52,861 bases of DNA from positions 1 through 52,861 of the IMG/VR virus record IMGVR_UViG_3300033149_002181, one strand, 5' to 3'. A program made the translations under genes and the position numbers. The first letter of the stretch is position 1, and each line of letters starts with the position of its first letter. Of this stretch, positions 4,526 to 27,978 are shown in pieces. The notes under the pieces were generated by a model. The model did no database searches and was not told the DNA's origin. It was given only the letters and a program-made list of their open reading frames with translations. This DNA is from a virus.

Positions 4526-4526
4526 T

Positions 4527-7499
4527 TTAGTACACCCCCTGACCGGCGAGGTTAAGTGAGCGGCCGCGTCGCCCGACTGCCAGGTTGACTTTGCGTTCAA
4601 AATCGTCATAGCCGTAAACGTCACCGTATATATTAATCGTTAGTCCGCCGCGTACCCTGGATTCAGGGGTGATATATTCCCCCTCTCCGCCTTCAGCCAC
4701 TCGGACGATTCGTCCGCCCGGAGTCGGCGGGATATAACCACCGTTGGCAAAACCGGGTATGGGAATGGCCCGCGCTACTTGGAAACGGGTCAGGACGTAT
4801 TTAAAACCGGCAGGGATATTCCTTAGAGACTGACTTACCTTATCTGCAGTTTCGGCCAAATCCTCAGCGGAATCAGCCGCTTGAGCTTGCGCCATAGCCG
4901 AATCCCAAGTTAGATTAGCCAGCTCATTTAATCCTTCTTGCAGCGGTTCTGTATTTATTGTCCCTAAATGAACTCCCAGCCAACCTAGTGCCCAATTAAT
5001 AGCTCTGGCAACAGCGTTCCAGGCGTGGGCGATGCCTAAAGCCAAAGCGGACACTACTATACCAAGCAACTTAAATACCGGGAAAAGCGCCTGCAGAACC
5101 GGCATAAAAATCGCGGAGAAAATAACACTCAAAACTTTCAGGACCGGGGCTAGGGACTTAGAAATCACTAGAATCAACGGCAATAACGGCTGCAATAACA
5201 TACCTACAGCATCAGCGGCCGCCTGTAGGAGAGGATTGATGATGTTTAGAATTTGTGCAAAAGTCTGCGAATTAGATATAACAGCCGTCAGGGCGCCGGC
5301 GGCCATCCCAACCGGTCCGCCTGCAGCTCCGGCCTGCGCTCCTTGTATTGCCGCAAAAACTATCGGAATGTTTTGGAGCAGCTTATCTATCGCGAAGTCT
5401 TTGATAGATTTCAGGCTGTCCGTTAACTGTTGCCATAGAGTCTTTTGTTCTTCTATGACCGGTCTCATTTCCGCTACTTGCAACATGATATTTATCAAAC
5501 TGCTAGTGGCTTCTTCTGCAAAGAAAAAAGAGTCTATAAAGTCCTCCAGTTTTGTCCGCAGCTCTGCAAAGGTGCTTTTTATCTGCTCGACTTTTTCCTC
5601 ACCTAATATGGCTATGGCCAGTTTCTCAACTGCAGTAGCAATGATCTCAAAAAGTCGCGTAAATCCTGCAAGTAATGATCGACCAAGAGAACGGAACATG
5701 TCTCTCATATCGGTTACTGTCGCTTTGGCCTCGCTTAAACCGGGAACGGTAGCCTGTGGCGCGTAGCCTTCCTGGAAACCAGGTACTCCCATTGCTCGGA
5801 ACCATCCGGCCACAGCGGGTAAACCACCCTGTACAATTTTTGCAGGCACAACCGCTTCGCCGGGTGCGAGGAGAGCGGGGAATTGGTCAGGACCGAAGGC
5901 GCCGGGTAAAACAGCCCCTTCTTGAAATCTCCACTTGAACAATTCACCAAGATTCGGCATAGTAAGTGGTTTCCTAAATCCCTCCTTAGTGGCTTCACCG
6001 AATTCTCTGCCGAATTCTTTCACCTTCTGCATAAAGCCAGAGCCTAATTCAAGGTTTAACGCTATTGTGAACGCTAGTACACCGGCTTGAGGGCTACCAG
6101 TAAACACTCCTATCCCTATCCCGGCTGCCAGCGCTAACGCCATATCCTGGCCAAATTTTTTGAAACTACCGGCTGCAATGGCTTCGGATAGTTTTATTCC
6201 GACAGTGAGCAGACCGATGCCCAGCGATAACCCGCCTATCCCCAATTTTCCGCCGACATTGCCAAATACTGAACCAATAGCAGTTAAAATTTTTGCCGCC
6301 GCACCTTTGGCCAACATTAAACTAATAGCAATCACCGCACCTTTAGACCATAAATCGGAAATCGTACCAAAAAACGTTGCCCAGTCACCGGATTTTAGGG
6401 CTTCCCAAAGTGTTCCGCCGATATTAATTACCCAGTTCCAAGCTTTTTTCACATAATCCCAAAGAGTCTCAAATACCGGCCTGATAGCGTCCCAAACGGC
6501 TAAAGTCTTATCCCGTATCCCGCCCCAGTTGTCTTTCCATACAACGTACAAGAGGGATAGACCTGCAGTGATCAGCATAAAGGGCGAAGTCAGAATGCCG
6601 GCGATAAATGCTATGACCCCCCCTATCAGGGTAAGGCCTTTTACGAAAACAGCAATCCCGGCGACTACAACACCAAAAACGGTAACCAGTCCTAAGATGG
6701 CAGCTGCAAGAACGCCCCAACGAGCAATTTGAGACTTTGTCGTATCATCTAACTGACTTAACTTCTCGACCAGGCGGCTTGCTTTGCGGGTAATTTTCTG
6801 GAATACTTTTACAAGCGGTTGTTCAATTATAAATCCCATCTGTTCCGCTAAATCGCCAAGCACGTTTTTCATCTGGGTAAACGCACCCATCGCTGTTTTA
6901 GTCATTTCCCGGGCGGCCGGGCCAGTGTTCTTGTCGAGAATCCGCATCAACAAAGCAATTTTTTCAAATTGATTAGCAGCATCAAATGCTTTTCGTTCTG
7001 CCTCGGTGAGGACAATACCATAACGCGAAAGTGCCCCGGCCCCCGTTGAGAGCGCGCGGCCGACCTGCACAGCAGCCTGGCGCAAATCCATATTATACAT
7101 AGCGGCCAAATTTTGTACTCTAGGAAGTAAGTCAAGAATTTGCTTTTCCGTCAGTTGAAATGTAGTCAGCATAGCAGCAGCTTCAATAGTGGCTTCGTCA
7201 CCGTATTTTGTAAGTTTCTGCAGTTGACTGGCATACCGCTTAATTTTCTCAATATTAATGGCCTGTCCGGTGCCCTTAATCGCCGCCGCTAGTTTTAGTT
7301 CCGCCTCCCTTTGTTTTGAAGCTGCTGCGACAAGACCCATGGAAACAGCAGTAAACCCGGCTAGGGCGACCGTAGCTCGTTTTGCGAAGCGCGTTGCTAC
7401 ATTTTGAAGCCCGTCTAATTTTTTATGCACCCGCGCGAGACCTGCTTCAAACCCCCGTGTGTCCGCGCCGATTTTAAATTCAATCGTCCCTACTCGCAT
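4527..7499 (-). CDS. Tail tape measure protein
   Basis: This is the longest tail gene (990 residues). The N-terminus (MRVGTIEFKIGADTRGFEAGL...VHKKLDGL) is typical of phage tape measure proteins. Several hydrophobic membrane-like segments lie around residues 260-310, 440-480 and 770-830. Helical Ala-rich stretches alternate with them. The protein sets tail length and is ejected with DNA. It starts inside the end of the second chaperone frame, as is usual. The C-terminal Gly-rich region (FANGGYIPPTPGGR, VAEGGEGEYITPES) matches the usual tape measure tail. I see no lytic transglycosylase or peptidase motif. Confidence 0.92.
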   Translation of the reverse strand: MRVGTIEFKIGADTRGFEAGLARVHKKLDGLQNVATRFAKRATVALAGFTAVSMGLVAAASKQREAELKLAAAIKGTGQAINIEKIKRYASQLQKLTKYGDEATIEAAAMLTTFQLTEKQILDLLPRVQNLAAMYNMDLRQAAVQVGRALSTGAGALSRYGIVLTEAERKAFDAANQFEKIALLMRILDKNTGPAAREMTKTAMGAFTQMKNVLGDLAEQMGFIIEQPLVKVFQKITRKASRLVEKLSQLDDTTKSQIARWGVLAAAILGLVTVFGVVVAGIAVFVKGLTLIGGVIAFIAGILTSPFMLITAGLSLLYVVWKDNWGGIRDKTLAVWDAIRPVFETLWDYVKKAWNWVINIGGTLWEALKSGDWATFFGTISDLWSKGAVIAISLMLAKGAAAKILTAIGSVFGNVGGKLGIGGLSLGIGLLTVGIKLSEAIAAGSFKKFGQDMALALAAGIGIGVFTGSPQAGVLAFTIALNLELGSGFMQKVKEFGREFGEATKEGFRKPLTMPNLGELFKWRFQEGAVLPGAFGPDQFPALLAPGEAVVPAKIVQGGLPAVAGWFRAMGVPGFQEGYAPQATVPGLSEAKATVTDMRDMFRSLGRSLLAGFTRLFEIIATAVEKLAIAILGEEKVEQIKSTFAELRTKLEDFIDSFFFAEEATSSLINIMLQVAEMRPVIEEQKTLWQQLTDSLKSIKDFAIDKLLQNIPIVFAAIQGAQAGAAGGPVGMAAGALTAVISNSQTFAQILNIINPLLQAAADAVGMLLQPLLPLILVISKSLAPVLKVLSVIFSAIFMPVLQALFPVFKLLGIVVSALALGIAHAWNAVARAINWALGWLGVHLGTINTEPLQEGLNELANLTWDSAMAQAQAADSAEDLAETADKVSQSLRNIPAGFKYVLTRFQVARAIPIPGFANGGYIPPTPGGRIVRVAEGGEGEYITPESRVRGGLTINIYGDVYGYDDFERKVNLAVGRRGRSLNLAGQGVY

Positions 7500-12526: not shown

Positions 12527-12865
12527 TCACTTTCCTTTCGCCTTGTCAAGATTAAGTGGAGCCAGCTCCTCCATCATACGTTCCTCTCGTTCTGCCCGCC
12601 TGTCTTCTTCTTCCGGCGTTAAGACTTTTCCAGAATGCTGTTTGTTTCCATGGTGAGTGCGCTCTGCGGAACCGATGAACTCAGCCCCGCAGATGGCACA
12701 CTGGTATGTTTCAGCCTTCTTCCCGACCGGGGCGAAATAGCCGAGGCGGACGAGCTTCTCATCATTCCGCGCGCCTACGAGCTCTACGATTTGTCCTCGG
12801 TCAAGCTCCTGTCCCGCATAGCCAAAGGGTCTCCTTGCCCAATAACGTTGCTTGGTAGTTGCCAT
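12527..12865 (-). CDS. Capsid-operon protein with C2H2-like zinc motif
   Basis: The 112-residue product starts MATTKQRYWARRPFGYAG and then has DRGQIVELVGARNDEKLVRL, a common head-operon pattern that may match a small capsid-associated protein. A Cys2His2-like finger follows (CAIC, then HHGNKQH), and the C-terminus is a charged helix (EEEDRRAEREERMMEEL). It begins where the capsid gene ends (one-base-level overlap), so expression is probably coupled. Zinc binding is inferred from spacing. Function unknown. Confidence 0.55.
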   Translation of the reverse strand: MATTKQRYWARRPFGYAGQELDRGQIVELVGARNDEKLVRLGYFAPVGKKAETYQCAICGAEFIGSAERTHHGNKQHSGKVLTPEEEDRRAEREERMMEELAPLNLDKAKGK

Positions 12866-13821
12866 TATACCACCGCCCCACTCATAAAGAGACCGGCATT
12901 TGTGCCGGTTGCTTTTTGGTCAAAATAGGTGTTAGCCTCGATGATATCCACCTCACGTTCCTCATCGCGCATCCGTTTGATATACTGAAGCGCATTGGCT
13001 ACTATTTGCCAGACGAAGGTATAACCGGCAGCAGGAGTTAGCAGAGACGGCCTCTCTGGAACGTAAATCATCAAAGCATTCTTGCCCCAAATCCTGGAAT
13101 ACGACACTGAGGATTCGGCAGTGCCCTCGGCAGAGGCAGTGTAAATTGCCCGACCGATCAGTACTTTGTCAAACTCAGCCAGCGAAGCAAACAGATCTTT
13201 GGTCATCTGTCCTTTCTGGGTGTACTTGATGGTGTCAATCAGATCCGGATGCCATTTGAGCTTAAGCCAAACCTGTTTCCCTAGTATGAGGGCGTTAGGT
13301 TCGCGGCCAATCAATGCCTCGACCGTGTCCTTGTAGTCGTCAAGATCAGTCAGCGGACTGGAGTTAGCATAGTCTGACCAAACGGTGAAGTCGGACCCGC
13401 CAGTCTTGTCGGTGCCCCAAACACCGGTCGTAAAAAAGTCGGTAGCGAACGCCACCTCACGCCGCATTTGGATTTTATCCGTCACCCACTCGGTTGCATC
13501 CCGGTCCAGGTTGAACGGAGCGTCCGCATTCTTCCTGGTCTCATCGTCGATCTCTTTCCGGATGGAAAAGCGGTCGCAGAAATACTTCGCGGTGGTTGTT
13601 ACCTTCCACCCACCACCAGCGGACTTAGTCCCCGGGGCCCTCAGTTTGGCCTCATCCCTAAACCAGTGAGACTGATCGTACTGCGGGATGATGTCAGACT
13701 GCTTCTGCACCGGCACGATCGGAAAGATCTGGTCGGCAATGTATTCCGGATTCTTGTACCCGATAGAAATATTGGTCAACAATTGGTCTACATGAAGCGT
13801 GCTTGCTACAGGATTAGGCAT
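12865..13821 (-). CDS. Major capsid protein
   Basis: The 318-residue product has features of HK97-fold major capsid proteins in this size class: an N-terminal NPEYIADQIFPIVPVQKQS motif, then TKYFCD-like and EIDDETRKNADAP segments, and DKIQMRREVAFATDFF. It forms the icosahedral shell. The ribosome site AAAGGAGTG is strong. Gene order (scaffold, decoration protein, capsid) agrees. Confidence 0.85.
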   Translation of the reverse strand: MPNPVASTLHVDQLLTNISIGYKNPEYIADQIFPIVPVQKQSDIIPQYDQSHWFRDEAKLRAPGTKSAGGGWKVTTTAKYFCDRFSIRKEIDDETRKNADAPFNLDRDATEWVTDKIQMRREVAFATDFFTTGVWGTDKTGGSDFTVWSDYANSSPLTDLDDYKDTVEALIGREPNALILGKQVWLKLKWHPDLIDTIKYTQKGQMTKDLFASLAEFDKVLIGRAIYTASAEGTAESSVSYSRIWGKNALMIYVPERPSLLTPAAGYTFVWQIVANALQYIKRMRDEEREVDIIEANTYFDQKATGTNAGLFMSGAVV

Positions 13822-13852: not shown

Positions 13853-14242
13853 CTAGGTCGTGCTCAGCGTAAACGGCCCGGTCAGCAGTACACGAATAAC
13901 CGTCCCGTCGGCAGACGAAGCATCAAGCGCAATACCGGCGATATAGTTGGTGTCAGACGCTTTTTTCACTGCTTTGCCGCTTGCATCGGTGCCGACGTAA
14001 TCGCCAACGGCAATGTTGGTGCTGGAGCCGTCAGATACGACCTTGCTAATGCCCAGCACCCTTACTTGTGCCGCATGATACTGGGTCGGCTTGTTCTGCA
14101 ATACACCGATAGGCTTATCTGCCGCATTGTCACAGACATCAACTTGATCAGTACCACTCAATTCAACAAAGTAATATTGCTTTGCGCTCAGATCGTTCTC
14201 AGCCTTTGCGCTGATGTCGAATACAGCCATTTCGGTTGCCAT
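13853..14242 (-). CDS. DUF2190-like capsid decoration protein
   Basis: The ATG at 14242 is preferred because AAGGAGGTAG lies in front. A TTG one codon earlier is less likely. The 129-residue product (ISAKAENDLSAKQYYFVEL, ADKPIGVLQNKP, AVGDYVGTDASGKAV, AGIALDASS) closely follows the pattern of DUF2190 proteins, small trimeric beta-barrel capsid decorators encoded next to the major capsid gene. Confidence 0.8.
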   Translation of the reverse strand: MATEMAVFDISAKAENDLSAKQYYFVELSGTDQVDVCDNAADKPIGVLQNKPTQYHAAQVRVLGISKVVSDGSSTNIAVGDYVGTDASGKAVKKASDTNYIAGIALDASSADGTVIRVLLTGPFTLSTT

Positions 14243-14256
14243 CAATATCTACCTCC

Positions 14257-15141
14257 TTAAATCCTAACCGCAGTCTCTTTGCGGTACTGTTCATAAAGCT
14301 GCGGGTTTTCAGCCAGCACTTTCGCCAGCGCGTCCATCCTGCTTAAGTTGGCGTTTTTCTGCACTAACCCCGCTGCCATGGCCTCGACTTTGGCAACAGC
14401 GGAGTCGCCAGCGGGCATGCCGCCTCGGCCAATCTCAGCATAGAGCGCGCCTTTCTCGATGGCTTCACTGGCCGCCTTCAGCACACCTTCAAGCTTGGTA
14501 TATTCTTCCGGCGCCTTTTCAGCCAAACCCTTCAGCACCAAACCAAATTCTTCCGGCTTGGTCGGCAGGTTGGTAAAGTCAGTCGCGGCCTTTTGCACGA
14601 ACTCCTTGCGAAGCTGCTTGTCGCGTTCTTCCTTAAGCACCTTCTCAAGCTCTTCGGCTTTCTTGATGGCTTCCTGCTGCTCTTTCCAGAGTGCCTCTAC
14701 CGCAGGACGAACTTCTTCCGGAATACCGGAAAAGTCATAGCTTCCGTCTTCCTTTTTGGTCGGTGCAGGATAACCATATTTCTTCTTCTTGTCTTCTTCT
14801 TCCTCGTCTTTTTTGTCCTTAGCCTTCTCGGTCGGTGCAGGATAGCCGTAGCCGGCCAACTCGGCCAGAGTCTTCATGATGTCCTTGGGCAAGGAGTCCT
14901 TATAAGCGTTGAGTAGTCGTAAAGCGCCTTTGACTGCATTCTGTGCCTTGTCGGATAGCTTGGCTGCTTTCAGGACTTCCTCCACTTTCTGCTCATCTTC
15001 AAGTTCAGTTTCTAAAACAGCCTTAAGAATTTCTTCCATTGAACTTCCCTCCTCAGATTTGTAAATAAAAAAGCGCTTTTTTACAGCGCCTCTTGGTACA
15101 AGACTAACTTCTGGAATTTCTAAATCACTTAATTGGTACAC
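14257..15141 (-). CDS. Capsid scaffolding protein
   Basis: 294 residues, GTG start at 15141. The middle and C-terminus are highly charged and helical (EALWKEQQEAIKKAEELEK, KEERDKQLRKEF), typical of scaffold proteins that are removed during maturation. The N-terminus (LSDLEIPEVSLVPRGAVKK) resembles the C-terminal tail seen in XkdF-type protease proteins. This suggests that it derives from, or is cut from, a protease-scaffold unit. A short duplicate (GYPAPTEK / GYPAPTKK) brackets a Lys/Glu/Asp-rich linker around residues 97-128. Confidence 0.75.
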   Translation of the reverse strand: MYQLSDLEIPEVSLVPRGAVKKRFFIYKSEEGSSMEEILKAVLETELEDEQKVEEVLKAAKLSDKAQNAVKGALRLLNAYKDSLPKDIMKTLAELAGYGYPAPTEKAKDKKDEEEEDKKKKYGYPAPTKKEDGSYDFSGIPEEVRPAVEALWKEQQEAIKKAEELEKVLKEERDKQLRKEFVQKAATDFTNLPTKPEEFGLVLKGLAEKAPEEYTKLEGVLKAASEAIEKGALYAEIGRGGMPAGDSAVAKVEAMAAGLVQKNANLSRMDALAKVLAENPQLYEQYRKETAVRI

Positions 15142-15153
15142 ATAACCACCCTC

Positions 15154-18100
15154 TTACGCTATTTGGATGTCAATAAACTCCACCTCCGGTAACTTTGGTT
15201 TGTCAATTGAGGTCCTCACGCCAAAACCACCAACAGAATAACTTGTTAGCCTTCTTTCTTCGACCTCTTTCCATAATCCATCGGCCTGAATTTTACTGCC
15301 GAGAATCCATGCCCCGGAATGGAATATCTCTCCGCCGCACTTAACCCTGTACGCCCTATGTGGCTTCCCTTCCATCGCCTTCTGCCAGTCATCATATGAG
15401 GGGTACGGGAATAGATAACTCTCGACAGGCACAGCATCGGCCTTCTTATGATGTCGATAGCCTAACAAACGAGATTTGATCAGCCAATTATGTGCCACCT
15501 GCTCAACATCTGCTGGACTTACCCAATCGTCCTGGGAATCAACTTGATAGGGATCCAACGCTACACCATACACAATTCGTCGGGGCTGATCGATTTTAAT
15601 GATCGGAGCCTGGTACTCTTTAGCAATTTTCGCTTTTGCCACATCAATTTTCTGTACGGGCTTACCTGGTTCATCAGCCCAAAGTAACCATTTTTGACCT
15701 TTCTCTTTTAGTTCGCTTATGACATCAGCGAGTTTGTGCGTTTTTGTATATGGTTCCTGCGATTCTGGCCGGTTTACTAACCATACTCTTCGCCCCTGTC
15801 CCAACGGAGCATATTGTATAAGTAAACGGCCTTTCAAGTGTTTGCCGTTCAAAAAAAGTTCACGTCCGTGTTCCCGGGCAAAAGAAAACTTGTACTCGCC
15901 ACCGTCAAGTTTAAAAAACTTTGAATAAGTTTTGCTCGTAGACCCGGGGCCTCCGGGTTCAGAAATATACGGACCTTTATCTGTAATGGTTATCCACCTA
16001 ACAGGTTGGAACAGTTTGAACTGGCCTTGTAGACTGTCATCAGGCGGTAATTCAAGCAGACGACTTCCGTACTCCGTCTTACGGATGTCTTCGGTATCGC
16101 CCTCAAAGACTGAGAACCCCCAAGCTGTCTCATCGTCTATCTGGAAGCGCAGGTCGCCGTGGACACTATGGTTGGTTTTCAATAGCTCTTCGTGGCTAAG
16201 TTTGGTTTCTTCCTCGCTCAGCCCGCGCCAGTGCATCTGATAAACCCATCTGCCTCGTCCAGATTTCGGGTACATGTTGTGCCATTCTTCTTCATACAAC
16301 TTCTCCGCTATTTCAGCCCGAGTGTCGCCTTCCTCGCCTAAACGATCAGCTTTTTCCACCTGTTCTAGTGCACGTTTAATTTGCTTTAGCTTCCTCGCTA
16401 CCTCCCCGCTGTCCCCGAACCGCCTAACCGCCATCGGGTGAGGCAAAACAAAATCCGCTCTTTCACCTAGAGCGGACTTAGCGGTCTGACCTAACGCAAC
16501 TATAATTTGCGGATTGGCTTTGTCTAGTTCGTTAAACAGCCAATCGCGCCATTTTTCTATTTCTTCTTTGCTTGGTTCGCGCACCCGACCTTTTTCATCG
16601 GTCAGGAACTGGGGAACTGCATTGGTGAGAAACACTTCATTAGGCTTGAGACCCAACGGTTTCAAATAAAGTTCTTTAAATGTTTCCCCGCTGGGGCCGG
16701 TAAACGGTTCCCCCCTAGCTGCCTCAACCCGGCCGGGAGAGGCACCTACAAAGACTAGTTTTGCGTTTTTAGGTCCCCGACTGGGAACTATGTCCTGCAT
16801 CGATTTCTGAAGCACCTGCCCGCGCTTCGCAACATCGATAGCTTGAGCAGCAGTGTAAGGTTCTTTTCGAGTATCATCCACATCAATTACACGAGCTCCA
16901 AGCCAAGCGAGAACTTTCTTCTGTTCGTCCGGGATAAGCTCCAGCACCTCGCACGTGATAATGTCGCCAACCTTGGCCTTAATGTTTGTAGAAAACGTCT
17001 TACCTAAATCAATGTACTTCTTGCCGTTTAGTTCCCGAACGTTGCGCCACTCCATACCTACGCTCGGCAGGAGACCGCCCCAATAGTTGTAGTCTCCAGC
17101 TTTCGTGCGCTGTACGTCAAGCACGATAACTTTCAGCTCAATAACTCGCTTTAGCTTGAACCACTCGTCGGTGGCCCCGCTCAGTTCGTATTTACCTCCG
17201 GCAGACTTCGCTACTAGCCCCTCGGAGCGGTCCTGGTCGAACGCCCAGCGAGCGGCCACCTTAGCTTCCTGTGGCGTCTTGCACCATTTCAAGGGAGAAA
17301 TAGTTAACAGCTTTCTGAGGTTCAGCGACTCCAATATCTTGCGCCTTTCCTTGAACGGTTTATCGCTCAAATCTTCTCCCCAGTACGGCACATCAAAGAC
17401 CGTCAAAATAGGCGTCTCGTTTTCAGCGAACTCTGGTTTCTCGCGGTTGAACTTCATTAGATCTGGCCTTGCCACCCGCTTACCGTCGCGCAGCATGCCC
17501 AAGTCGCAGTCTAGGATAAAGTCAGCGTTAAGCTTTTCCAAGACCGCTTTTATCTCGGGGAATTTGTGCAGTTGGTCTTTGCCATATTGCCCCTCAAACC
17601 AAAGCCGTAGCTGGCTGCCCTTTTTTTCGGCAATGCTCCTGAAACCATTATGCTTCGGCTCTACAGCTATCGGCCAGCGGTTTTTTGCCCACTCTAGCAG
17701 TTCGTCTATGGTGTAAGCTTCTGTGTATTCGGCCATGCTCGGTTTGGGCGGTACAAACTTCTCAAATGGCTCCAACCCCGCCTTGCTTACTGTCTCCGGC
17801 TTACGTAATATACCTCGGACATAAACCAAATCGTCATTCTGGATTTCCTCCAGCTTCTCAACCTCGAACTTCGGGCGGCCTTCAAGTAGGTTATCCTGCG
17901 TCCAAAAGACGAAGGTGGACTTATTCCAAAAGCTCTTGTGGTCGGGGTGGTTAAACGCGCCCTCTCCTTTCGTACTCGGCACTTCGAAGACAAACTTGCC
18001 GCCGGGCTTTAAAACCCGGTGGATTTCGACCATGATGTGCTCTTTATCCGCGAGATGCTCCAGGACGTGGTTTGCGCGTATTTCATCCGCGCTGTCGTCA

Positions 18101-18939
18101 GGATAGGGTATACCCTGCTCTAGGTCATATACTACATCAACCTGCGGGCCCGGTTCTTTATCGATTCCCGTATAGCCGTCGGGTTTAGAATCGCCACAGC
18201 CGAGATCTAGTTTAAGTGCGTCTCCTTTCACTACTTGGCGTCTCGGTTCCTCGCGCCGGAGAACTAGCGAGTAGCACGGTATGAAATCTGCATGGCTGCC
18301 TTGTGGCGAATCTATAAAATGGAGTATTCCTTTTTTCTCGGGGTCAAGCACCTTTCGCACCGGTAGCCAGACATTATCTGCATGGATCAGAAAGTTCTCA
18401 CCAGATTTATCCCTGTTTGCCCTGAATAGTACATCTATATCTTCCGGGTTTTCCTTGCCCACGGCTGCTGATCCCACAACAGAGACAAAGTTAGGAACAA
18501 CAACCACTTCCTGCGGCAGGCTTGCCAATTTCGTCTCTATACTCTGGGCTTTTTTCACGTCCTGGAGCTTCTTTGCTTCCTGCACCAGTTCACTGTTTTC
18601 GTCGTAGTCAAAGCCCCGGTGATCGAATTCCTCCATTACCCAGATGGCGGCATTGACAATCTCCTCCGCCGGTTCTTTACGTTTCTTGGCCGCACTATAC
18701 CACTGGTGCAGTCTAAGCCACGCTTGCCTTACCTCTTCATCCGGCGCCTCTTTTAGCTTATCAGGCCGTATTTCAGCCAGAGCCATTTTTTCTAAAAAAG
18801 ACGGTTCCTCCGGCTCGCGCCATCGGGCCTTACCACCAGCAGCGGGAAGAGCGGCCTGATGTATAGCGTTCCAGGCCCAGTCTGGAAGCAGCTCCTTTGC
18901 TTTTTCTAGAGCTGTCTCAAGGTATTCTTTGCTTGGCAT
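15154..18939 (-). CDS. Polyvalent multi-enzyme protein ending in an XkdF-type prohead protease
   Basis: One 1261-residue frame carries six recognisable parts. About 145-230: nucleotidyltransferase-like (GSAAVG at 156-161, D167 and D169). About 242-380: class I SAM methyltransferase (DLGCG at 245-249, HVLEHL, RVLKPGG). About 420-690: ATP-dependent nucleic acid ligase (Lys429 in EPKHNGFR, FDVPYWGED, EGLVAK at 573, WFKLKR at 593). About 715-850: family-4-like uracil-DNA glycosylase (GASPG at 732, PFTGPSG, TNAVPQF, late HP). About 895-1075: LigD-type 3'-phosphoesterase-like (HGDLRF at 927). About 1115-1245: XkdF-type protease (RIVYGVALDP, SPADVEQVAH). The ligase site is KHNG, not the usual KxDG. 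The protein is encoded between the MuF-like and scaffold genes. Polyvalent proteins of this kind are described in phages as cargo of virions. Packaging and self-cleavage here are inference. The N-terminal 140 residues are helical and unassigned. Confidence 0.8.
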   Translation of the reverse strand: MPSKEYLETALEKAKELLPDWAWNAIHQAALPAAGGKARWREPEEPSFLEKMALAEIRPDKLKEAPDEEVRQAWLRLHQWYSAAKKRKEPAEEIVNAAIWVMEEFDHRGFDYDENSELVQEAKKLQDVKKAQSIETKLASLPQEVVVVPNFVSVVGSAAVGKENPEDIDVLFRANRDKSGENFLIHADNVWLPVRKVLDPEKKGILHFIDSPQGSHADFIPCYSLVLRREEPRRQVVKGDALKLDLGCGDSKPDGYTGIDKEPGPQVDVVYDLEQGIPYPDDSADEIRANHVLEHLADKEHIMVEIHRVLKPGGKFVFEVPSTKGEGAFNHPDHKSFWNKSTFVFWTQDNLLEGRPKFEVEKLEEIQNDDLVYVRGILRKPETVSKAGLEPFEKFVPPKPSMAEYTEAYTIDELLEWAKNRWPIAVEPKHNGFRSIAEKKGSQLRLWFEGQYGKDQLHKFPEIKAVLEKLNADFILDCDLGMLRDGKRVARPDLMKFNREKPEFAENETPILTVFDVPYWGEDLSDKPFKERRKILESLNLRKLLTISPLKWCKTPQEAKVAARWAFDQDRSEGLVAKSAGGKYELSGATDEWFKLKRVIELKVIVLDVQRTKAGDYNYWGGLLPSVGMEWRNVRELNGKKYIDLGKTFSTNIKAKVGDIITCEVLELIPDEQKKVLAWLGARVIDVDDTRKEPYTAAQAIDVAKRGQVLQKSMQDIVPSRGPKNAKLVFVGASPGRVEAARGEPFTGPSGETFKELYLKPLGLKPNEVFLTNAVPQFLTDEKGRVREPSKEEIEKWRDWLFNELDKANPQIIVALGQTAKSALGERADFVLPHPMAVRRFGDSGEVARKLKQIKRALEQVEKADRLGEEGDTRAEIAEKLYEEEWHNMYPKSGRGRWVYQMHWRGLSEEETKLSHEELLKTNHSVHGDLRFQIDDETAWGFSVFEGDTEDIRKTEYGSRLLELPPDDSLQGQFKLFQPVRWITITDKGPYISEPGGPGSTSKTYSKFFKLDGGEYKFSFAREHGRELFLNGKHLKGRLLIQYAPLGQGRRVWLVNRPESQEPYTKTHKLADVISELKEKGQKWLLWADEPGKPVQKIDVAKAKIAKEYQAPIIKIDQPRRIVYGVALDPYQVDSQDDWVSPADVEQVAHNWLIKSRLLGYRHHKKADAVPVESYLFPYPSYDDWQKAMEGKPHRAYRVKCGGEIFHSGAWILGSKIQADGLWKEVEERRLTSYSVGGFGVRTSIDKPKLPEVEFIDIQIA

Positions 18940-18940
18940 T

Positions 18941-19834
18941 TCACAATTTCCTCCTGACTAACCCTTCTGTACATCGACATTGCGGATGTAAAATCGGACC
19001 CACAATCCCGCCTTCATATGCGCCTTCAATCGGAGCCCGTTTACCATCCATCGCCATGCATTGCTCACATGAACGTTCGTCGGGAGTATAAATCCATTCA
19101 CGTTCCATTTCTGCAGGATCAAGATACCCCTCATCTACCGCTTGTCTCCAGGCTTCTCGCTGTCCCTCATTAGCCGCCATCATGGTTTCTGTACGTGCAA
19201 TCACTTTTGACCGATAACGCAACAATTTCCGAGAATAACTATCAGCCATTTCATTTACTCGTTTTAATGATCGCGTGCCATCCTCTGCTAACCTGGCCCA
19301 ATAATTATCTACGGCACGCATCTGTCGCTCGGTAAGACCAATGTAATTTCGAATCTTCCTTGCCTGTTGATAAGGATGGCCACCTTCCTCAAAAGCTCGG
19401 CGAATTATTGCCTGAATAGCCTGTCGACTTTCCTCCGTTATCTGAGTGATAAGTTCTCCGGTATGCCGGTTAATAAACTCAACTGCACGCGGGTTAAGTA
19501 GGTCAAAACGAAGCTCCATTTTTAATCTCTTACTTAATCTTCTTACTGTTGCTTCTCCAGCTTTATTTATAATATTTTGAAAAATCTTTTTAAATGCCCA
19601 AAGACCGGCACCAAAAGCGACCCAGTCGATTGAGTTTTCAACGGAGGTTTGATTCCCTCTTTCTATACCTTCGGCCATTTCTTTTACCTTGACTTTCTCT
19701 TTAGTTTCGGTAACTGCTGATAAAAAAGATCTCTCAAAGTTGTCTTGTTCATCATCCGCTATACGATGTATCACACGCCATTCTGGACTTCTTGACTGAT
19801 CAGCTTTCAAAATAGGTTCGCGAAAAACAAACAC
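18941..19834 (-). CDS. MuF / SPP1 gp7-like minor head protein
   Basis: The 297-residue product has the Mu F/SPP1 gp7 C-terminal motif: ERSCEQCMAMDGKRAP and then LHPQCRCTEG, with conserved Cys and His. Upstream, GLTERQMRAVDNYWARL and VIARTETMMAANEGQREAW match this family. It enters the prohead with the portal and helps DNA ejection. GTG start at 19834 behind CGGAGGT. The gene directly upstream of the multi-enzyme gene fits the known link between MuF-like proteins and toxin or enzyme cargo. Confidence 0.82.
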   Translation of the reverse strand: MFVFREPILKADQSRSPEWRVIHRIADDEQDNFERSFLSAVTETKEKVKVKEMAEGIERGNQTSVENSIDWVAFGAGLWAFKKIFQNIINKAGEATVRRLSKRLKMELRFDLLNPRAVEFINRHTGELITQITEESRQAIQAIIRRAFEEGGHPYQQARKIRNYIGLTERQMRAVDNYWARLAEDGTRSLKRVNEMADSYSRKLLRYRSKVIARTETMMAANEGQREAWRQAVDEGYLDPAEMEREWIYTPDERSCEQCMAMDGKRAPIEGAYEGGIVGPILHPQCRCTEGLVRRKL

Positions 19835-19859: not shown

Positions 19860-21131
19860 TCATTCTTCTATACCTTCACTGGGTAGATTTGCCACCTCTA
19901 ATAAGTACTTCTCAAGTTCTTTGTTCGGGAATAAAGGCATTCCCGCCATCGCCAGTCGGGATATGAAATTGCTTAATTCCTCCAGACTAATGGACTCAAT
20001 GTCTCCATGCCTCAGCTCAGGATATTTTTCTATTTTGAATTCGTTCAACTTAAATAACCTCGGTACTGCATGAGTATTCAGCACGGCTTCAATTTCATCC
20101 AGAAAGGCGCCTATTGCAACGGCGAAAAGCTCCGTTTTTGAGCTTGCCAGTGCGAAACTACCCACCTTCTGAGTCCCCAACATAATAAAGTCCGCCAGTA
20201 CTGTTTGTGCTATCTGCGTATTATACCGTTGGATAATGGTGCTGGTATCGAACTGTCGTCTGCCTCCGGTAGAAAGCAACTGTATATCGTACAGCTTATT
20301 TCCTTCTTCATCATAGGCCAGCGGCATAACAATTCCTTCCTGCTGATCCCGGCGGATCTTGGTTACCAGACTCTTAAACGCATTTAGGACCGTAGTTTCA
20401 GCGTCTGTTGACGGATTTGCTACGTTAGGCGGTACCCAGACAACGGGGAGTCCAGCTAAATCGCGCTCTACACCGATACCCTCAATAGTCTCAATATTTT
20501 TCTTGAAATACCAGGGTTTGTAACAATTCCTCAGCATGCTCCGCCCCTGTGGCGAATTCTTCATCGATTCTGTCCTGAAAAGGAGCAGCTTCTCAATCGG
20601 TATCTCCCGGAGCTTATAGTCTGGCGGCGCTACTTGTCTTATGCCTTGGATCCCGCCTTCCTCATCGAATATCCATTCTTGTATTGAGTCTTGACTGCGA
20701 ATCGAAAACTTCCGCCAGCCTATTCTGCCGTCGTTATATTTGCTACGTTTTCTAGGATCCTGATTGTCTCCCAATCGACGCTTATATACAATCTCAAAAA
20801 CCGAGTAACCGTACACCAACATAGATAAAACTTCGCTTATGAAGTCCTGCCATGAATGGCTAGTATCATGGATACATTCCTCCAGAAACCTGGCTGCTTC
20901 TCTATCGGCGTTGCTGGCACCTGCTGCGTCAACCCGCCATGGAACTTGACGACATAGCATCCTTATGGCGAAAAGAATGGCACCGATTATCGGGTCGTTA
21001 TCAGCCATCTCCCTGTACACACGAGTAGCTTTAACGCCTTGTAAATCTGGAAGCCACTCTTCATATATATTTCCGCCCCATCTACTAAGGCCCGTAGATC
21101 CTAACATAGTATACAAGTCTATTTTAGCCAA
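19860..21131 (-). CDS. Portal protein (DUF935-like)
   Basis: The 423-residue protein begins LYTMLGSTGLSRWGGN and has a helical middle part (SWQDFISEVLSMLVYGYSV, FEIVYKRR) followed by FSIRSQDSIQEW and LLLFRTES, which fit the DUF935/Mu gp29-like portal families. It makes the dodecameric DNA channel at one capsid vertex. TTG start at 21131, overlapping the end region of terL within four bases. Position after TerL is canonical. Confidence 0.82.
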   Translation of the reverse strand: MAKIDLYTMLGSTGLSRWGGNIYEEWLPDLQGVKATRVYREMADNDPIIGAILFAIRMLCRQVPWRVDAAGASNADREAARFLEECIHDTSHSWQDFISEVLSMLVYGYSVFEIVYKRRLGDNQDPRKRSKYNDGRIGWRKFSIRSQDSIQEWIFDEEGGIQGIRQVAPPDYKLREIPIEKLLLFRTESMKNSPQGRSMLRNCYKPWYFKKNIETIEGIGVERDLAGLPVVWVPPNVANPSTDAETTVLNAFKSLVTKIRRDQQEGIVMPLAYDEEGNKLYDIQLLSTGGRRQFDTSTIIQRYNTQIAQTVLADFIMLGTQKVGSFALASSKTELFAVAIGAFLDEIEAVLNTHAVPRLFKLNEFKIEKYPELRHGDIESISLEELSNFISRLAMAGMPLFPNKELEKYLLEVANLPSEGIEE

Positions 21132-21134
21132 CTT

Positions 21135-22484
21135 TTATCGCCTCCAGCGGCTTTCACCGTCGATGCCAACAGGCGAGAGAATCGGCGTCTGCATGCCAGA
21201 CTTTACTGCCCAGCATGCTAATGCCAGACTCATCACACAGTCGTCATGCCGACCTTCCGGTGCTTCGGGCCGTACGTTCATTCCACGTCGTACCCGCCGG
21301 AAAAATCGAAGCTCATCCCTTATGGTTGTATTACTTGTCGGTAGAAGCAGCTTTTTTTGTTCGACCTGGATCATCAAGTTTGAAATAAGCTCCTCTCGGC
21401 TGCGTTGCGTGAATACAAACGGCACGCAGTCCTGTACCTGCTCCGCTACAGGATCGCCTACGCCCGTAGCATCAAGATAAACCTTAGCCGCATACTTTGA
21501 CTGCAGATTGTTCACTTGGGCCACAATATCACCGTAAAGCCTGCTGCGGTAGCGATACCACTCGACGATCCTGTATGGTGTCATTGTTATGTCCAATACT
21601 GTTATAACCGTGTAATCTTGATATTTTGCTAAATCCACACCGATGCTGTATACATGGCCTTGCTCCCGCGCGCCCTCAGGTCTATAATCTTCAAACACGT
21701 GCTGGAGAACTGACCAAGGAAAAACTATTGTATCGTCATCGATGAACTCCGCTAAGTACTCTACCCGGAAAGCTAACTCAGGAACTTCTTTGCGAATTCG
21801 TTCAACTTCTTCCAAATCCAGACGGGGGTTATCGAAAACCGTGGCATGAAAGCTTCGGTAGTAACCACTGGCATCATTTAACCCCTGTTGATAGAGCTGA
21901 TATATATATCCCTGGTTACCGTTAGGTGTGGTTTCAGCCCGGATTTTCCCTTTCCGATCTAGAACCATAGCCCTAATGACATCGTTATAAACTTTATCCT
22001 TTACGAATGCAGCTTCGGTAATGACAACTCCATCCGCACCTTTACCTCGGAGATAAACCCCGTCCCGGGCAGTAGACCGCGCCATAATCCGGCTCCCGTT
22101 GATAAGTTCAACTTTCGGAAAAGGAGACCACTTAAATTTTTTCCCCGGCACCAAAATGGAAAGCAGCGGGTTTTCCATCCGCTGCTCAAGCTCGCTAAAA
22201 TATATTTTCGCCTGATCCATACTGGGAGCCGTGATATACCAGCGCTGTTTTTGCTTAGTGGCGCATTCATGAAGTATATCCACCAAGGTAGTTAAAGTTT
22301 TACCGAAGCGTCGGCCAGCTACTTTTACTGAGACCTTGCCACCCAAGTTAACCGCCTTGGACTGTTTTTCTTCCAAAACCACGCCTAGAAACTTTTCAGC
22401 GAAATAAACTTTATCATTGCGACACCTTTTAAGCACATCTCTGGCCTTCCGTTGTTGCTCAACCGTCCATATCATCATCATCAT
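21135..22484 (-). CDS. terL: Terminase large subunit (TerL)
   Basis: The start chosen is the first of four consecutive ATG codons (22484). It overlaps the end of the small-subunit gene, and an upstream extension is antisense-like and unsupported. About 449 residues. The ATPase domain has a Walker A-type VAGRRFGKT near residue 55 and a Walker B-type GVVITEAAF. The nuclease domain has SIGVDLAKYQD, DATGVGDPV and HDDCVMSLALA, supplying metal-binding acids. It packs DNA through the portal and cuts it. Confidence 0.88.
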   Translation of the reverse strand: MMMMIWTVEQQRKARDVLKRCRNDKVYFAEKFLGVVLEEKQSKAVNLGGKVSVKVAGRRFGKTLTTLVDILHECATKQKQRWYITAPSMDQAKIYFSELEQRMENPLLSILVPGKKFKWSPFPKVELINGSRIMARSTARDGVYLRGKGADGVVITEAAFVKDKVYNDVIRAMVLDRKGKIRAETTPNGNQGYIYQLYQQGLNDASGYYRSFHATVFDNPRLDLEEVERIRKEVPELAFRVEYLAEFIDDDTIVFPWSVLQHVFEDYRPEGAREQGHVYSIGVDLAKYQDYTVITVLDITMTPYRIVEWYRYRSRLYGDIVAQVNNLQSKYAAKVYLDATGVGDPVAEQVQDCVPFVFTQRSREELISNLMIQVEQKKLLLPTSNTTIRDELRFFRRVRRGMNVRPEAPEGRHDDCVMSLALACWAVKSGMQTPILSPVGIDGESRWRR

Positions 22485-22965
22485 CCCAAAGTGATTGAAA
22501 AGCGTCGACCAAACGGGATTGCGGGTCATCACCGATAAGTTCTTGCCGTGTTCGCATTGCCTGGCGTATTTCGCTCTGCAACTTCTCCCGTAGCTGGACC
22601 AGTGCAAGTGGCGGATTTCTCCTCTCTTTAATGAGGTCTTTTAGCCAAGCTTGTGTTGCTCGACTAAGTTCATAGTTATCCGTTATAGTAGCATCCAATA
22701 TTTCAACGTCACTCAGCCTTTTCTTGACCTGCTGTTGCATTTGTTCCTGGCTCTTCCAGTACTGCTCCCTAACTTCAGCTTTAATGTCAAAATGTTCATT
22801 CATGTGTTTCCAGATGGACTGGTGGCTTATTTTTTCCCCATGATCTTCAAACAGCTTTACAGATGCGGCTCTGGGACTAAGACCTTCCTCTTTGCACCAT
22901 TTTTCTATTTCAGCCCGGCGCTGACTGTTGCATACCTTGCACCGGGAAGAATATCCAGTCGGCAC
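22459..22965 (-). CDS. terS: Terminase small subunit (TerS)
   Basis: GTG at 22965 is preferred: AGGAGGTGGC lies 6-8 bases upstream and the product (PTGYSSRCKVCNSQRRA) begins with the DNA-binding fold. A longer frame upstream would be translated through a simple tandem repeat (HEHKQ units) and has no good ribosome site. The 168-residue product carries CKVC, EGLSPRAASVKLFED and SHQSIWKHMNEHF, resembling the HTH N-terminus of TerS, then an oligomerisation helix (ATQAWLKDLIKERRN). It recognises the packaging site, perhaps the repeat just upstream. Confidence 0.72.
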   Translation of the reverse strand: MPTGYSSRCKVCNSQRRAEIEKWCKEEGLSPRAASVKLFEDHGEKISHQSIWKHMNEHFDIKAEVREQYWKSQEQMQQQVKKRLSDVEILDATITDNYELSRATQAWLKDLIKERRNPPLALVQLREKLQSEIRQAMRTRQELIGDDPQSRLVDAFQSLWDDDDDMDG

Positions 22966-24231: not shown

Positions 24232-25002
24232 TACTGCTATTTCCTTTTAAAATATTTTTAAGCGGAGGAGTGGGGAGCTCCCTGTATGGAAAAACAGATA
24301 ACCTGATTTTTACCATCCTTTTCGGATAGCTCTCTCTGATACCACTATAGCACAGAAACATACCCTCTGTAGTATTGAATTTGTATGGAACGTGATTTTT
24401 TTAACAAAACATCGATACTTCGGGGAAAATAGAGATATTATGTATGCCCAGACATCCTCCCCTTTCCAACCAAAAACCGGTCGGCATTTCCATATTTCCT
24501 CCGTCTTTGAAAAATAAAACAATCCATATTTACCACTGTATTTTCGGCCTAAACTTTCCTCTCCTCGTAAACCAAATATTAAACAATCTATATCAAATTC
24601 GTTAATTGCTTTCTTTATACCGGCCATTAAATTATTTTTTAAAATTTCACGTTTGATATTACTTAACCCGCCTGCTTCCCGATATATTTCAAAAATTTCT
24701 TTCGGCGTTTTAACTCGATGATAATTCAATTTATACTTTTGCGCATAATTATCATACATTTCAACAGCTTCTTCTAAATCTCCGCCTTGACCCCGATCGA
24801 TATTTATAATCAATATATCCGGCTTAATCTGCCTTGCAATATCCACACAAACAAGACTATCTTTGCCAAAACTAAAACTAACTGCTGGATTTCGGCATGT
24901 TTTAATCGCTTGTTTAAGCGCATTTTGCGCTTCTTCCAAGCGGCGCTTAAATCTTGGTAATAACGCTGTCATAAAATACTGATCTTTTTGCCATTGTTCC
25001 AT
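24215..25002 (-). CDS. cysH: CysH-like PP-loop protein of type IV-B operon (frameshifted in this sequence)
   Basis: The protein belongs to the PAPS reductase/adenine nucleotide alpha-hydrolase superfamily: SFSFGKDS near residue 45, then IINIDRGQGGD and LIFGLRGEESLGRKY. As written, the reading frame ends at 24310 with an abnormal tail. If one A is added to the A7 run (T7 on the + strand, 24396-24402), the frame continues as NHVPYKFNTTEGMFLCYSG and IRESYPKRM, a typical C-terminus of this family, and stops at 24215. The gene would then encode about 262 residues. A gene of this type is the hallmark accessory of type IV-B CRISPR loci. Its reaction there is unknown. The break may be a sequencing error, real decay, or slippage. 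Start at 25002 overlaps the upstream membrane gene. Confidence 0.7.
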
Positions 25003-25871
25003 CTCCTATACCCCCAGACAGTGTAAAGAATCATCGGCATAACAATAAATATCCGCGCCGTCGCATACCATGTCCATATCTGCGTCGCTGTTTTAGTTGC
25101 AAATAATGGCCATGAAAATAATGCGGCAACGGATATAACAACTGCCAATATGTCACCAGATAGATCTTGCAATGCCGCAATACATGAATCGAGTGTCGAC
25201 GTTGCCACGGCTATGATTATAATCGCAAATAATATTTGTGAAATTGCGCCTTGAGATAGAAAGGCGAAAAATACCAGGCTTAAATATAGGCCAAAAGCCA
25301 AAGATGCCAAAAGCCACGGATTGACACCTTTAATCCTTTCTGCACGTTGAAATTGCTGGCCGTCGAGAAATGGCCCGGCCATCAATCCTATACAAGCAGA
25401 TACAACCCAGCTAACATTAACCGGCTGATAATTTAAAACATTAAGATTAAATTTGCCTGTCAAAATAACAAGCACCAATCCACCAACCATAGCTAAATAT
25501 TGCCATTGATCACTTTCAACAGAAAACTTAAATTTATATTTATATGTCAGAAGAAATATTATGGTCGCGACAGTAGTTGCCCATCCGTTGCCAATATAAG
25601 TTGCCATGATCCTAATATTAATCCATATACAAAATATTTGTATCCCAATCATAGCTAATTTGATAAATATACTATTCTTTAATTTGATATAACCCGGATA
25701 TTTTCTTACGAACGCCCCATAAATAAATAGTGATAAAATGTTACATACCGCCCATGGCAGAAAAGAATGTAAGCCCATAGTTTTTAAAATACTAAAGCTC
25801 ACGCCCAAACTAACTCCCCAGGCCCAGGAAGCGGCTGCACTAATACCTAATTTAAACTGTTTGATTTGCAT
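24969..25871 (-). CDS. Multi-pass membrane protein, SSS-symporter-like, inside the type IV-B operon
   Basis: The 300-residue product is almost entirely hydrophobic with about nine or ten predicted membrane spans. Two sequence cues recall solute:sodium symporters: GPFLDGQQFQRAER in the middle, resembling the GxxQxWQR loop, and STLDSCIAAL near residue 220, resembling the S-T-x-D-S sodium-site helix. Typical symporters are near 500 residues, so this is a reduced form. It overlaps csf3 by 20 bases and cysH by 34 bases, so the three are probably translated together. GGAGG precedes the ATG. Substrate and role are unknown. Confidence 0.65.
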   Translation of the reverse strand: MQIKQFKLGISAAASWAWGVSLGVSFSILKTMGLHSFLPWAVCNILSLFIYGAFVRKYPGYIKLKNSIFIKLAMIGIQIFCIWINIRIMATYIGNGWATTVATIIFLLTYKYKFKFSVESDQWQYLAMVGGLVLVILTGKFNLNVLNYQPVNVSWVVSACIGLMAGPFLDGQQFQRAERIKGVNPWLLASLAFGLYLSLVFFAFLSQGAISQILFAIIIIAVATSTLDSCIAALQDLSGDILAVVISVAALFSWPLFATKTATQIWTWYATARIFIVMPMILYTVWGYRRWNNGKKISIL

Positions 25872-26520
25872 TGCATGCTAACCTCCGATCGTTTGGTATT
25901 AATACTCTCGTCCACTGCCACGCAAGCCAATATGGTGAACGAATACCCATTTCAACATCTCCGTTTTCATCGGGAATGGCCCGGAGGTAAGAAAGATCCT
26001 CCGGCCACTCCCCGACTGTCCAACGTACCACTCGTCCAAACCCCTGGCTACGTTTTTTACCGATGTGAGTCACGTATTTTAGCAATATTTCTATTTTGTT
26101 TTTTTCTCCTACTGCATACCATTCCAGCTTTGGCATAAGATATGTCACCAGCGGCATTCGATAGTTTTTATATTGACCTGACTTAACATTGACCTTTCCG
26201 CGTTTTTTGCCGAAGTCAATGTATTTCTGCGCGTCATCAAAATCCAATCTTTTATGCCAGTGCACTATCTCTTCGCGTTGCGGTTTTCCGCAGGCAAACG
26301 AACAAGCCCAATACCAGTCATCATCTTCGCCTCGTTTTTCAAGCGGTAAATCAGGGACTATTAAATTTTCCGGCATAATACTGCTTTGAGAAGCAATCAT
26401 AGCTTCAGGGTGATTCAATCTAATCCAAACCTCAGCCAGAATTGAGTCGAGAGGCAGAAAAAGATCATATGTTGCTATTTTCCCAGTCTGCATATATGCA
26501 GTAATTTTCAGTGGTTGCAT
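25852..26520 (-). CDS. csf3: Csf3 (Cas5-like) of type IV-B CRISPR system
   Basis: 222 residues from the ATG at 26520, the one correctly spaced after AGGAGG. The upstream ATG at 26526 overlaps that site. The product begins QPLKITAYMQTGKIA and ends with a typical Cas5/RAMP arrangement, including LLKYVTHIGKKRSQGFGRV, a glycine-rich loop common in RAMP proteins, preceded by WYAVGEKNKIEILL. It should cap the RNA-bound filament. Its start overlaps csf2's stop, showing translation coupling. Family assignment rests on motifs and synteny. Confidence 0.78.
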   Translation of the reverse strand: MQPLKITAYMQTGKIATYDLFLPLDSILAEVWIRLNHPEAMIASQSSIMPENLIVPDLPLEKRGEDDDWYWACSFACGKPQREEIVHWHKRLDFDDAQKYIDFGKKRGKVNVKSGQYKNYRMPLVTYLMPKLEWYAVGEKNKIEILLKYVTHIGKKRSQGFGRVVRWTVGEWPEDLSYLRAIPDENGDVEMGIRSPYWLAWQWTRVLIPNDRRLACNANQTV

Positions 26521-26522
26521 AT

Positions 26523-27506
26523 TCATCCTCCTATGGCGCGAATTAACGAGTCTCGTTTTTCCTCCAGATACCCAGCGTATCGGTTGAGAAACTCATCATA
26601 TTTCACCTTCGCGTCCTTCGCCGATTCAGCGAGAAAACATTTTCCGTCAGCCACACTCAAAAACGGTTCTTTTCCTTCGCCGAATAGCTCAATTTGCATA
26701 TCGACTTTTACTTTTCCCATTCCGATCCGTGCCTGTCCGCCGATGTATGGCTGCTTGGACCATTCAACGATTGCTGCCACGAAGGCGCCGAGCTCAATTT
26801 CGGTCATATCCTGAAAGACGGTTTCCTGCCATAACACAGAACCCCGGCATAATACCTCAATCATGTACCGCATCTGCTCTGGTCTATCTTTCTTCTTCTC
26901 TTTCTTCTCGTCTCCTGAGTCAAGCATCAAGGCGGCTTGTCCGCCGGTAAGTTTCGGAGTGTCATCGCTCTGGAGATATGGCCGGAGCAGATCATCTTTC
27001 GCATCGTCCTTCCGGCTATAACTAATTTCCGTTGTCATTTGCCGCCATGATAATTTCCGGTTCCCGGGAACCTCCTGTGGTATAATATGCGCCAGCTCTC
27101 TGCACACCGGCAACCCCTCACCAACAGCCAATTTCCCGGGCAACAGCATGTTTCCGACTCCACCGCCGAACACTGACAGGTGGGGTATTTGCTCCCTTAT
27201 CCGCCGTGCCTGATCAATATCGATTGACTGATCGCCACCGATTGCTCCACCTGAGAAAAACAGATAAAACATCTCAAGCGGAATCTGTAACGTTACACCG
27301 CTCCCTAATTTGTCCAGCATGTACCGGGCTCCCGAATCCCGCCACACGCCACGCAGAGCGTTCCCGGAGTATACGAATACCTGAGCGATATTTCCCTCCG
27401 CGTCCAGAATGTCCTGGGTTGACAAGTATGAATTCGGTCCGATACTCTCCCCAATATGCGATAAGGGACTTAATAGTGTAAAAACCGTTTCTATTCTACC
27501 GTTCAT
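26523..27506 (-). CDS. csf2: Csf2 (Cas7-like) backbone of type IV-B effector
   Basis: The ATG at 27506 is chosen because GGAGGAG lies eight bases upstream. A longer frame starts inside the preceding gene. The 327-residue product starts NGRIETVFTLLSPLSHIGES, with NSYLSTQ, FVYSGNALRGVWRD and a Gly loop (VFGGGVGNMLLPGKL), the pattern of Csf2. Cas7-type subunits polymerise along RNA. The start lies 11 bases inside the upstream small-subunit gene. A Lys/Asp-rich insertion around 214-224 (DEKKEKKKDR) is variable in the family. Confidence 0.85.
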   Translation of the reverse strand: MNGRIETVFTLLSPLSHIGESIGPNSYLSTQDILDAEGNIAQVFVYSGNALRGVWRDSGARYMLDKLGSGVTLQIPLEMFYLFFSGGAIGGDQSIDIDQARRIREQIPHLSVFGGGVGNMLLPGKLAVGEGLPVCRELAHIIPQEVPGNRKLSWRQMTTEISYSRKDDAKDDLLRPYLQSDDTPKLTGGQAALMLDSGDEKKEKKKDRPEQMRYMIEVLCRGSVLWQETVFQDMTEIELGAFVAAIVEWSKQPYIGGQARIGMGKVKVDMQIELFGEGKEPFLSVADGKCFLAESAKDAKVKYDEFLNRYAGYLEEKRDSLIRAIGG

Positions 27507-27978
27507 AAATAATCTCCTCCTCGTCTTCTTTGATAATTCCACTGACCTCAAGCGGTTTTTCTCTTTCAAGCCGGTCGCGGACTAACGCAATTACCCATGA
27601 TGTTTTTTGATATAAAATCTCCAGAATCGGTCCATGGTTCACTTGCTCCAGAATCCCAACCCAAAATTGCCGACGGCCTTTGTCTTGTTTTTGAATCAGC
27701 TCGCCGGTTTCTCTATCGACCGCCATTGTTATTGTTTCCGGGTCAGTCGCCATCCACTTGGGTTTCAGAGTAGAGCACATCAGCCGGGGTTTGAGTTTTT
27801 CGATGAAATCATGTAGATCTAACGCCCGCTTTGCGCTGCTCTTGCAAGCCCTCTCAATAATTCCCCACATGTCAGGGGTTACTTTAAAACGTTTCATGTC
27901 ACGGCTTCTGTAAATGCCGTATATAATTAAAGCCCCGATAGCCGCGTCTTCTGAATTCGTCTCGAATCCGTAATACAT
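27496..27978 (-). CDS. Probable Cas11-like small subunit of type IV-B system
   Basis: The ATG at 27978 overlaps the upstream stop (TGATG) and AGGAGGAAA precedes it. The 160-residue helical protein (MWGIIERACKSSAKRALDLH, FWVGILEQVNHGPILEILYQK) lacks known motifs. In type IV-B loci the small subunit gene sits between csf1 and csf2, and this one overlaps csf2 in the same operon, so a Cas11-like role is assigned mostly by synteny, size and helical character. Confidence 0.5.
   Translation of the reverse strand: MYYGFETNSEDAAIGALIIYGIYRSRDMKRFKVTPDMWGIIERACKSSAKRALDLHDFIEKLKPRLMCSTLKPKWMATDPETITMAVDRETGELIQKQDKGRRQFWVGILEQVNHGPILEILYQKTSWVIALVRDRLEREKPLEVSGIIKEDEEEIIYER

Follow-up and report, generated by a model that had tools for sequence, protein, structure and literature searches.

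Why would a virus encode, in the midst of its head genes, a single chain in which several unrelated enzyme domains are followed by a prohead protease? The question is raised by the IMG/VR virus record IMGVR_UViG_3300033149_002181, of which positions 1 to 52,861 were analysed (52,861 nucleotides, from here on the window), and in which an open reading frame (ORF) at 15154..18939 encodes 1261 amino acids (aa). The initial annotation had described this ORF as one frame without stops, combining nucleotidyltransferase (NTase), methyltransferase, ligase, uracil-DNA glycosylase (UDG), phosphoesterase and prohead protease domains, and had suggested that a repair kit may be packed in the capsid and cut free by the protease. 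The single uninterrupted frame was borne out, with an ATG start and, on the minus strand (which had been left unstated), reading from 18939 to 15154. The observed ORF with its multidomain content is confirmed as genuine and is not a chance reading frame, as full-length relatives with 57-79% identity and the same domain order were found in several different metagenomes.

The reading which we consider probable is that the ORF specifies a polyvalent head polyprotein, which would cut itself in the procapsid into separate enzymes that would be ejected with the DNA. Its XkdF prohead protease lies at the C-terminus, fused to a cargo of NTase, methyltransferase, ATP-dependent ligase, UDG-fold domain and LigD-type 3'-phosphoesterase (PE). 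The chain would be produced alongside the head genes and enter the procapsid, where the activated protease would cut after the Lys of [VIL]-x-K-[A/S], within the linkers as well as close to the N-termini of the MuF and scaffold proteins. The freed enzymes inside the head would then accompany the DNA into the cell; there, the PE may heal 3' ends and the ligase may seal nicks or ends. As the cargo differs between phages, it may behave like a delivery slot.

Domain architecture and predicted activities

Relatives were annotated with domain hidden Markov models (HMMs) built in this analysis, giving the family domain order NH0-NH-NTase-methyltransferase-ligase-OB-UDG-PE-XkdF; all coordinates given for the window lie on the minus strand. 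The window domains scoring above their curated Pfam cut-offs are a class I S-adenosylmethionine (SAM) methyltransferase with its motifs (aa 242-381, 17797..18216; core at aa 269-318, Methyltransf_11, 1.6e-10), the nucleotidyltransferase domain of an ATP-dependent ligase (aa 400-598, 17146..17742; DNA_ligase_A_M, 1.2e-15, aa 402-597), a UDG-superfamily domain (aa 718-850, 16390..16788; UDG, 2.4e-23, aa 719-841, 83.2 bits vs a cut-off of 24.3) and the XkdF/Peptidase_S78_2 prohead protease (aa 1113-1243, 15211..15603; 2.6e-15, aa 1113-1242, 57 bits vs a cut-off of 24). Two specific UDG family models stayed below their cut-offs (TIGR00758, 69.6 vs 125.3 bits; TIGR03914, 92.5 vs 189.95 bits). The family HMMs placed an N-terminal helical segment (NH0) at aa 3-41 (18817..18933) and a helical domain (NH), near-universal in the family, at aa 52-123 (18571..18786). 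The region following the ligase (aa 601-700, 16840..17139) is probably the ligase OB fold, going by its position; no OB profile matched it, although the block is conserved in relatives.

The PE (aa 870-1047, 15799..16332) was identified by modelling, fold comparison and profile search. The window protein had no match to LigD_N in Pfam and did not reach the NCBIfam LigD cut-offs, and a relative matched LigD_N below the cut-off (0.0017, 18.9 vs 31.1 bits). An AlphaFold2 (AF2) model of the PE region from 51 relatives (predicted local distance difference test 92.8) significantly matched only LigD phosphoesterases, in seven chains (Foldseek 5e-7). Against 3p43 it gave a VIA Z of 14.2 (root-mean-square deviation 2.4 over 123 residues), with the first unrelated row at Z 3.7, and a PDB profile search with the same region agreed with LigD phosphoesterase. 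The Pol-beta-like NTase (aa 144-230, 18250..18510) was placed by family HMM and has a G...DxD pattern, with G156, D167 and D169 in 52/52 relatives and Ser157 in 49, while profile matches among relatives were weak (NTP_transf_2 in 9/44, DUF6932 in 12/44). The AF2 model of NH plus NTase (predicted template-modelling score 0.54) found no fold match in the PDB, nor did a PDB profile search with that region, and the nucleotidyltransferase is a putative assignment, based on the conserved motifs and weak profile matches. Structure prediction by domain, which had been proposed as a check, thus recovered the LigD PE fold and gave no match for the N-terminal part. The domain list itself was recovered in full, with the NTase at this lower level of support, and the ligase and UDG predictions, on whose failure the initial annotation would have been abandoned, both held.

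The catalytic residues were then compared across the relatives. The ligase Lys429 is present in 45/46 and Gly432 in 46/46, while Asn takes the place of the KxDG Asp in 27/46, among them the window protein with the KHNG centre noted initially, and Asp is retained in 18. Ligase motifs III, IIIa, IV and V are present (D/E479, D516, E573-G574 and K595). In the PE, H903 (60/61), H927 (61/61), D929 (61/61) and R931 (60/61) are nearly invariant, the two His and the Asp corresponding to the metal set of LigD. With these catalytic residues kept, the ligase and the PE are likely to be active. The protease retains H1163 (53/54) and S1235 (54/54), the SAM motif of the methyltransferase is conserved in relatives, and the UDG domain, with GASPG in place of GEAPG, keeps N773 and H834-P835.

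A recurrent linker motif and predicted cleavage sites

Nearly every domain boundary of the window protein has a hydrophobic-x-K-A/S motif in its linker. The cuts predicted from it are VKK130/A131 between NH and NTase (18547..18552), VSK386/A387 between methyltransferase and ligase (17779..17784), LQK712/S713 between ligase and UDG (16801..16806), VEK863/A864 between UDG and PE (16348..16353) and VAK1102/A1103 between PE and protease (15631..15636). A weaker predicted cut, VVK238/G239, lies between NTase and methyltransferase (18223..18228), where relatives have VVK-A or VVK-S.

The motif was assessed in a set of 33 proteins (<60% identical), with expectations taken from composition-preserving shuffles. 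[VILM]-x-K-[AS] was present in 76/164 linkers (19.8 expected) and in 0/15 of the joints between NH0 and NH. Motif density was about 5.6 times as high in linkers as in domains. A stricter test excluded the window protein, the NH0-NH joint and also the linker that precedes XkdF, whose first strand could mimic the motif. In the 32 remaining proteins the motif was found 49 times vs 13.3 expected, and with a hydrophobic residue at -2, K-A ranked first of 400 dipeptides (33 vs 8.7 expected, 0/1000 shuffles) and K-S third (16 vs 4.7 expected, 0/1000 shuffles). Exchanging the K for R, E or D removed the enrichment. The T4-like motif [ILV]xE[AGS] was also considered as a linker signal, and was rejected as it was not enriched in the linkers.

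The same motif marks the N-termini of two neighbouring head proteins across the family, with 24/45 MuF proteins (7.7 expected) and 31/50 scaffold proteins (9.9 expected) having it; in the window these are MFVFREPILK/AD (19802-19807) and ...KKRFFIYK/SEEG (15055-15060), respectively. There was no such enrichment at the N-termini of capsid proteins (5/39, 4.2 expected) or cement proteins (3/40, 5.9 expected). Separately, relatives L052, L058 and L083 have longer capsid proteins (371-390 aa, as stop-to-stop ORFs), with N-terminal extensions that contain the K-A/S motif, unlike the short ones. The HK97 prohead protease cuts at K103/S104 (PMC10275583), from which we predict self-cleavage at K-A/S in this family, and the XkdF domain would be the enzyme acting on the linker motif. 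The earlier suggestion that the enzymes are cut free by the protease thus gains support from a linker-specific signal, with the cutting itself a prediction.

Head-gene setting, cargo exchange and rival explanations

The polyprotein gene was indeed found between MuF-like and scaffold genes, as initially annotated. Upstream are the terminase large subunit (21135..22607), the portal protein (Portal_Mu in Pfam, 19860..21131) and the MuF-like minor head protein (Phage_Mu_F, 1.3e-9, 18941..19834), directly after which the polyprotein ORF begins. Downstream is a scaffold-like protein (14257..15141), followed by a cement/decoration protein (Phage_cement_2 in Pfam, 13853..14245) and the major capsid protein (profile match to phrog_1005, 12865..13821). 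The order portal-MuF-polyprotein-scaffold-cement-capsid protein is conserved in most contigs of sufficient length.

Four scans of environmental viral contigs gave about 60 distinct contigs with the family. The XkdF domain is at the C-terminus in nearly all complete relatives, while the cargo differs: the ligase is absent from L027, L043, L052 and L062, the UDG is relocated in L042, and the chain is reduced to NTase-PE-XkdF in L054 and to NH-PE-XkdF in L098. Insertions include D12 adenine methyltransferases (L045, L061 and L072), a metallo-beta-lactamase fold (L018), a 2H/LigT phosphoesterase (L052) and a DHH phosphoesterase (L098), and inserts in L035, L036, L038 and L058 matched no Pfam family. 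The sole cellular match, from a scan with the PE alignment, was a contig of a Bacillota metagenome-assembled genome (MAG; L099), in which the architecture is complete and head genes are present; a scan of genome contigs with the whole protein gave no relative, and phage records contained no full-length relative. In two relatives (L006, 3300033388_004322; L007, 3300033388_001231) the polyprotein ORF is split by frameshifts, reflecting sequencing error or decay, and in L008 it is interrupted by ~860 bases (at about 4172-5060) whose opposite strand seemingly encodes an HNH-type protein, and in which no Rfam intron reached the gathering score.

Several observations weigh against a self-cleaving polyprotein with an ejected enzyme cargo. 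We infer the presence of the cargo in procapsid and virion from gene context and precedent, and its ejection and action on incoming DNA from gene context. The motif came to notice in the window protein before it was assessed in relatives, and roughly half of the linkers lack it. Taken one by one, 17 of the 33 proteins fall short of significance, full independence does not apply to homologous linkers, there is also mild enrichment of the mirrored motif (22 vs 13.2 expected), and the scaffold signal may come partly from helical repeats (EILKA, for example). A search for Ku in 20 contigs, fragmentary in many cases, gave no match. The motif-A Glu of the UDG domain is Ala733 in the window and Ala in 31/38 overall, aa 706-850 of the window protein contain no Cys and thus no Fe-S cysteines, and relative L005 has a UDG without HP; UDG activity is doubtful on account of the missing Glu and cysteines. 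The third Asp of the NTase, present in 43/52 relatives, is Ser224 in the window, where this domain is perhaps inactive. The term repair in the initial annotation accordingly suits the ligase and PE, with their catalytic residues kept, and is uncertain for the UDG and the window NTase; overall, the initial interpretation is supported in part.

These points feed into other explanations of the locus. The cargo might consist mainly of structural or DNA-binding parts of an internal scaffold core, with enzyme folds co-opted for DNA binding or head-size control and then, like scaffolds, cut into pieces and discarded at maturation, for which the motif at scaffold N-termini, the catalytic damage in UDG motif A, the L005 UDG and the window NTase, and the wide variation in cargo size and content could be cited. 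Nearly all relatives, however, retain the Lys, EG and K motifs of the ligase, the metal residues of the PE and the SAM motifs of the methyltransferase, and the added cargo consists of enzymes (D12 methyltransferase, 2H, DHH), which makes this explanation unlikely, if worth keeping in mind. We consider it quite unlikely that the motif arose from the composition of the linkers or was inherited with their sequence and is no cleavage signal, with cutting elsewhere or never: the mild enrichment of the mirrored motif and the common ancestry of homologous linkers fit such an origin, but the composition-preserving shuffles, the specificity for K, the occurrence at several non-homologous boundaries, the MuF N-terminal signal, the lack of enrichment in the capsid and cement controls and the correspondence to the HK97 K/S site do not.

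The polyprotein could also remain whole and, during infection, function in the cell as a repair or replication enzyme with several domains, its protease part maturing the head only. Ligase, UDG-fold and PE activities could aid replication, and uncleaved polyvalent proteins of virions exist, the N4 virion RNA polymerase being an example (PMC5512222); the constant place among head genes, the C-terminal prohead protease and the motif at many non-homologous domain boundaries nevertheless render it improbable. That separate genes were joined artificially during assembly or annotation has a negligible chance of being correct, as no support for it was found, the broken frames of L006 and L007 and the interrupted L008 notwithstanding, and it is refuted by many intact full-length relatives with the same order from several metagenomes.

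Elsewhere in the window, a type IV CRISPR effector-like module (24310-29187, minus strand) comprises Csf1/Cas8 (28507-29187, 1.3e-41), Cas11 (27496-27981, 2e-37), Csf2/Cas7 (26523-27569, 6e-63), Csf3/Cas5 (25852-26526, 7e-46) and a PAPS-reductase/CysH-like protein (24310-25002, 3e-16). A type II hammerhead ribozyme at 47926-47989 (minus strand) exceeded the gathering score of Rfam (51.4 bits, E 1.2e-7). A replication module (minus strand) encodes an N6_N4 DNA methylase (32933-34777), a DnaB helicase (34811-36136), a Phage_rep_org_N replisome organiser (36141-36962) and RecT (37800-38645), a type associated with Firmicutes phages and consistent with the Bacillota MAG match.

Comparison with known systems

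A search of the available literature returned nothing on a ligase/prohead protease polyprotein or on LigD phosphoesterase in capsids. Bacterial LigD (PE-LIG) likewise joins a PE and an ATP-dependent ligase in one chain, with the same PE fold and metal residues, whereas the window protein has no polymerase domain, its UDG separates PE and ligase, and no Ku was detected in the 20, often fragmentary, contigs searched. The 'ATP-dependent DNA ligase' of the archaeal virus ANMV-1 (AJP62006, 866 aa) shares the order NTase-ligase-OB-PE, and its gene lies between a portal gene and that of a protein with a MuF-like-looking C-terminus, but it lacks XkdF, UDG and methyltransferase. The adjoining ANMV-1 gene (L011, 5868-9368) encodes a 1166-aa cysteine-rich repeat protein with an apparent terminal MuF-type CxxC...HxxCRC motif. 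We tentatively raise the possibility of a widespread tailed-phage family of self-cleaving head-core polyproteins, with a shared K-A/S signal, a swappable cargo slot and a basic PE plus ligase cargo that is common to the archaeal virus and would be delivered with the genome, healing and sealing the incoming DNA independently of Ku.

If the self-cleaving polyprotein reading is true, one family of tailed phages brings several enzymes into its capsids at a fixed ratio, through fusion to the maturation protease and internal cutting. It would also provide exact predicted cut sites, a route by which cargo enters phage heads, and a candidate pathway, independent of Ku, for healing and sealing the ends of incoming viral DNA, common to bacterial and archaeal viruses.

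Other close precedents are found among phage head proteins. XkdF/S78-type prohead proteases have the same protease domain, and relatives in Rhizobium phages bear the annotation DNA methyltransferase/prohead protease, with one methyltransferase named vs up to five enzyme domains here. In Salmonella phage SPN3US, internal head ejection proteins are processed by the prohead protease gp245 at a short motif (PMC10052503), although these come from separate genes with N-terminal propeptides, and no polyprotein contains the protease. Iyer et al. (2017, PMC5512222) described polyvalent proteins from both phages and conjugative elements, in which an assemblin-like peptidase, if there is one, lies at the C-terminus, and the window protein resembles them in having at least two disparate activities per chain, a phage context with portal and terminase, and the peptidase at its C-terminus. 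Pol-beta NTase, 2H and methyltransferase cargo occurs in some of their members, whereas text searches within the paper gave no mention of ATP-dependent DNA ligase, glycosylase or LigD phosphoesterase cargo, and the passages considered here describe no cleavage-site signal such as that proposed above. The protein class is already known, and the enrichment of the linker motif is what is new here.

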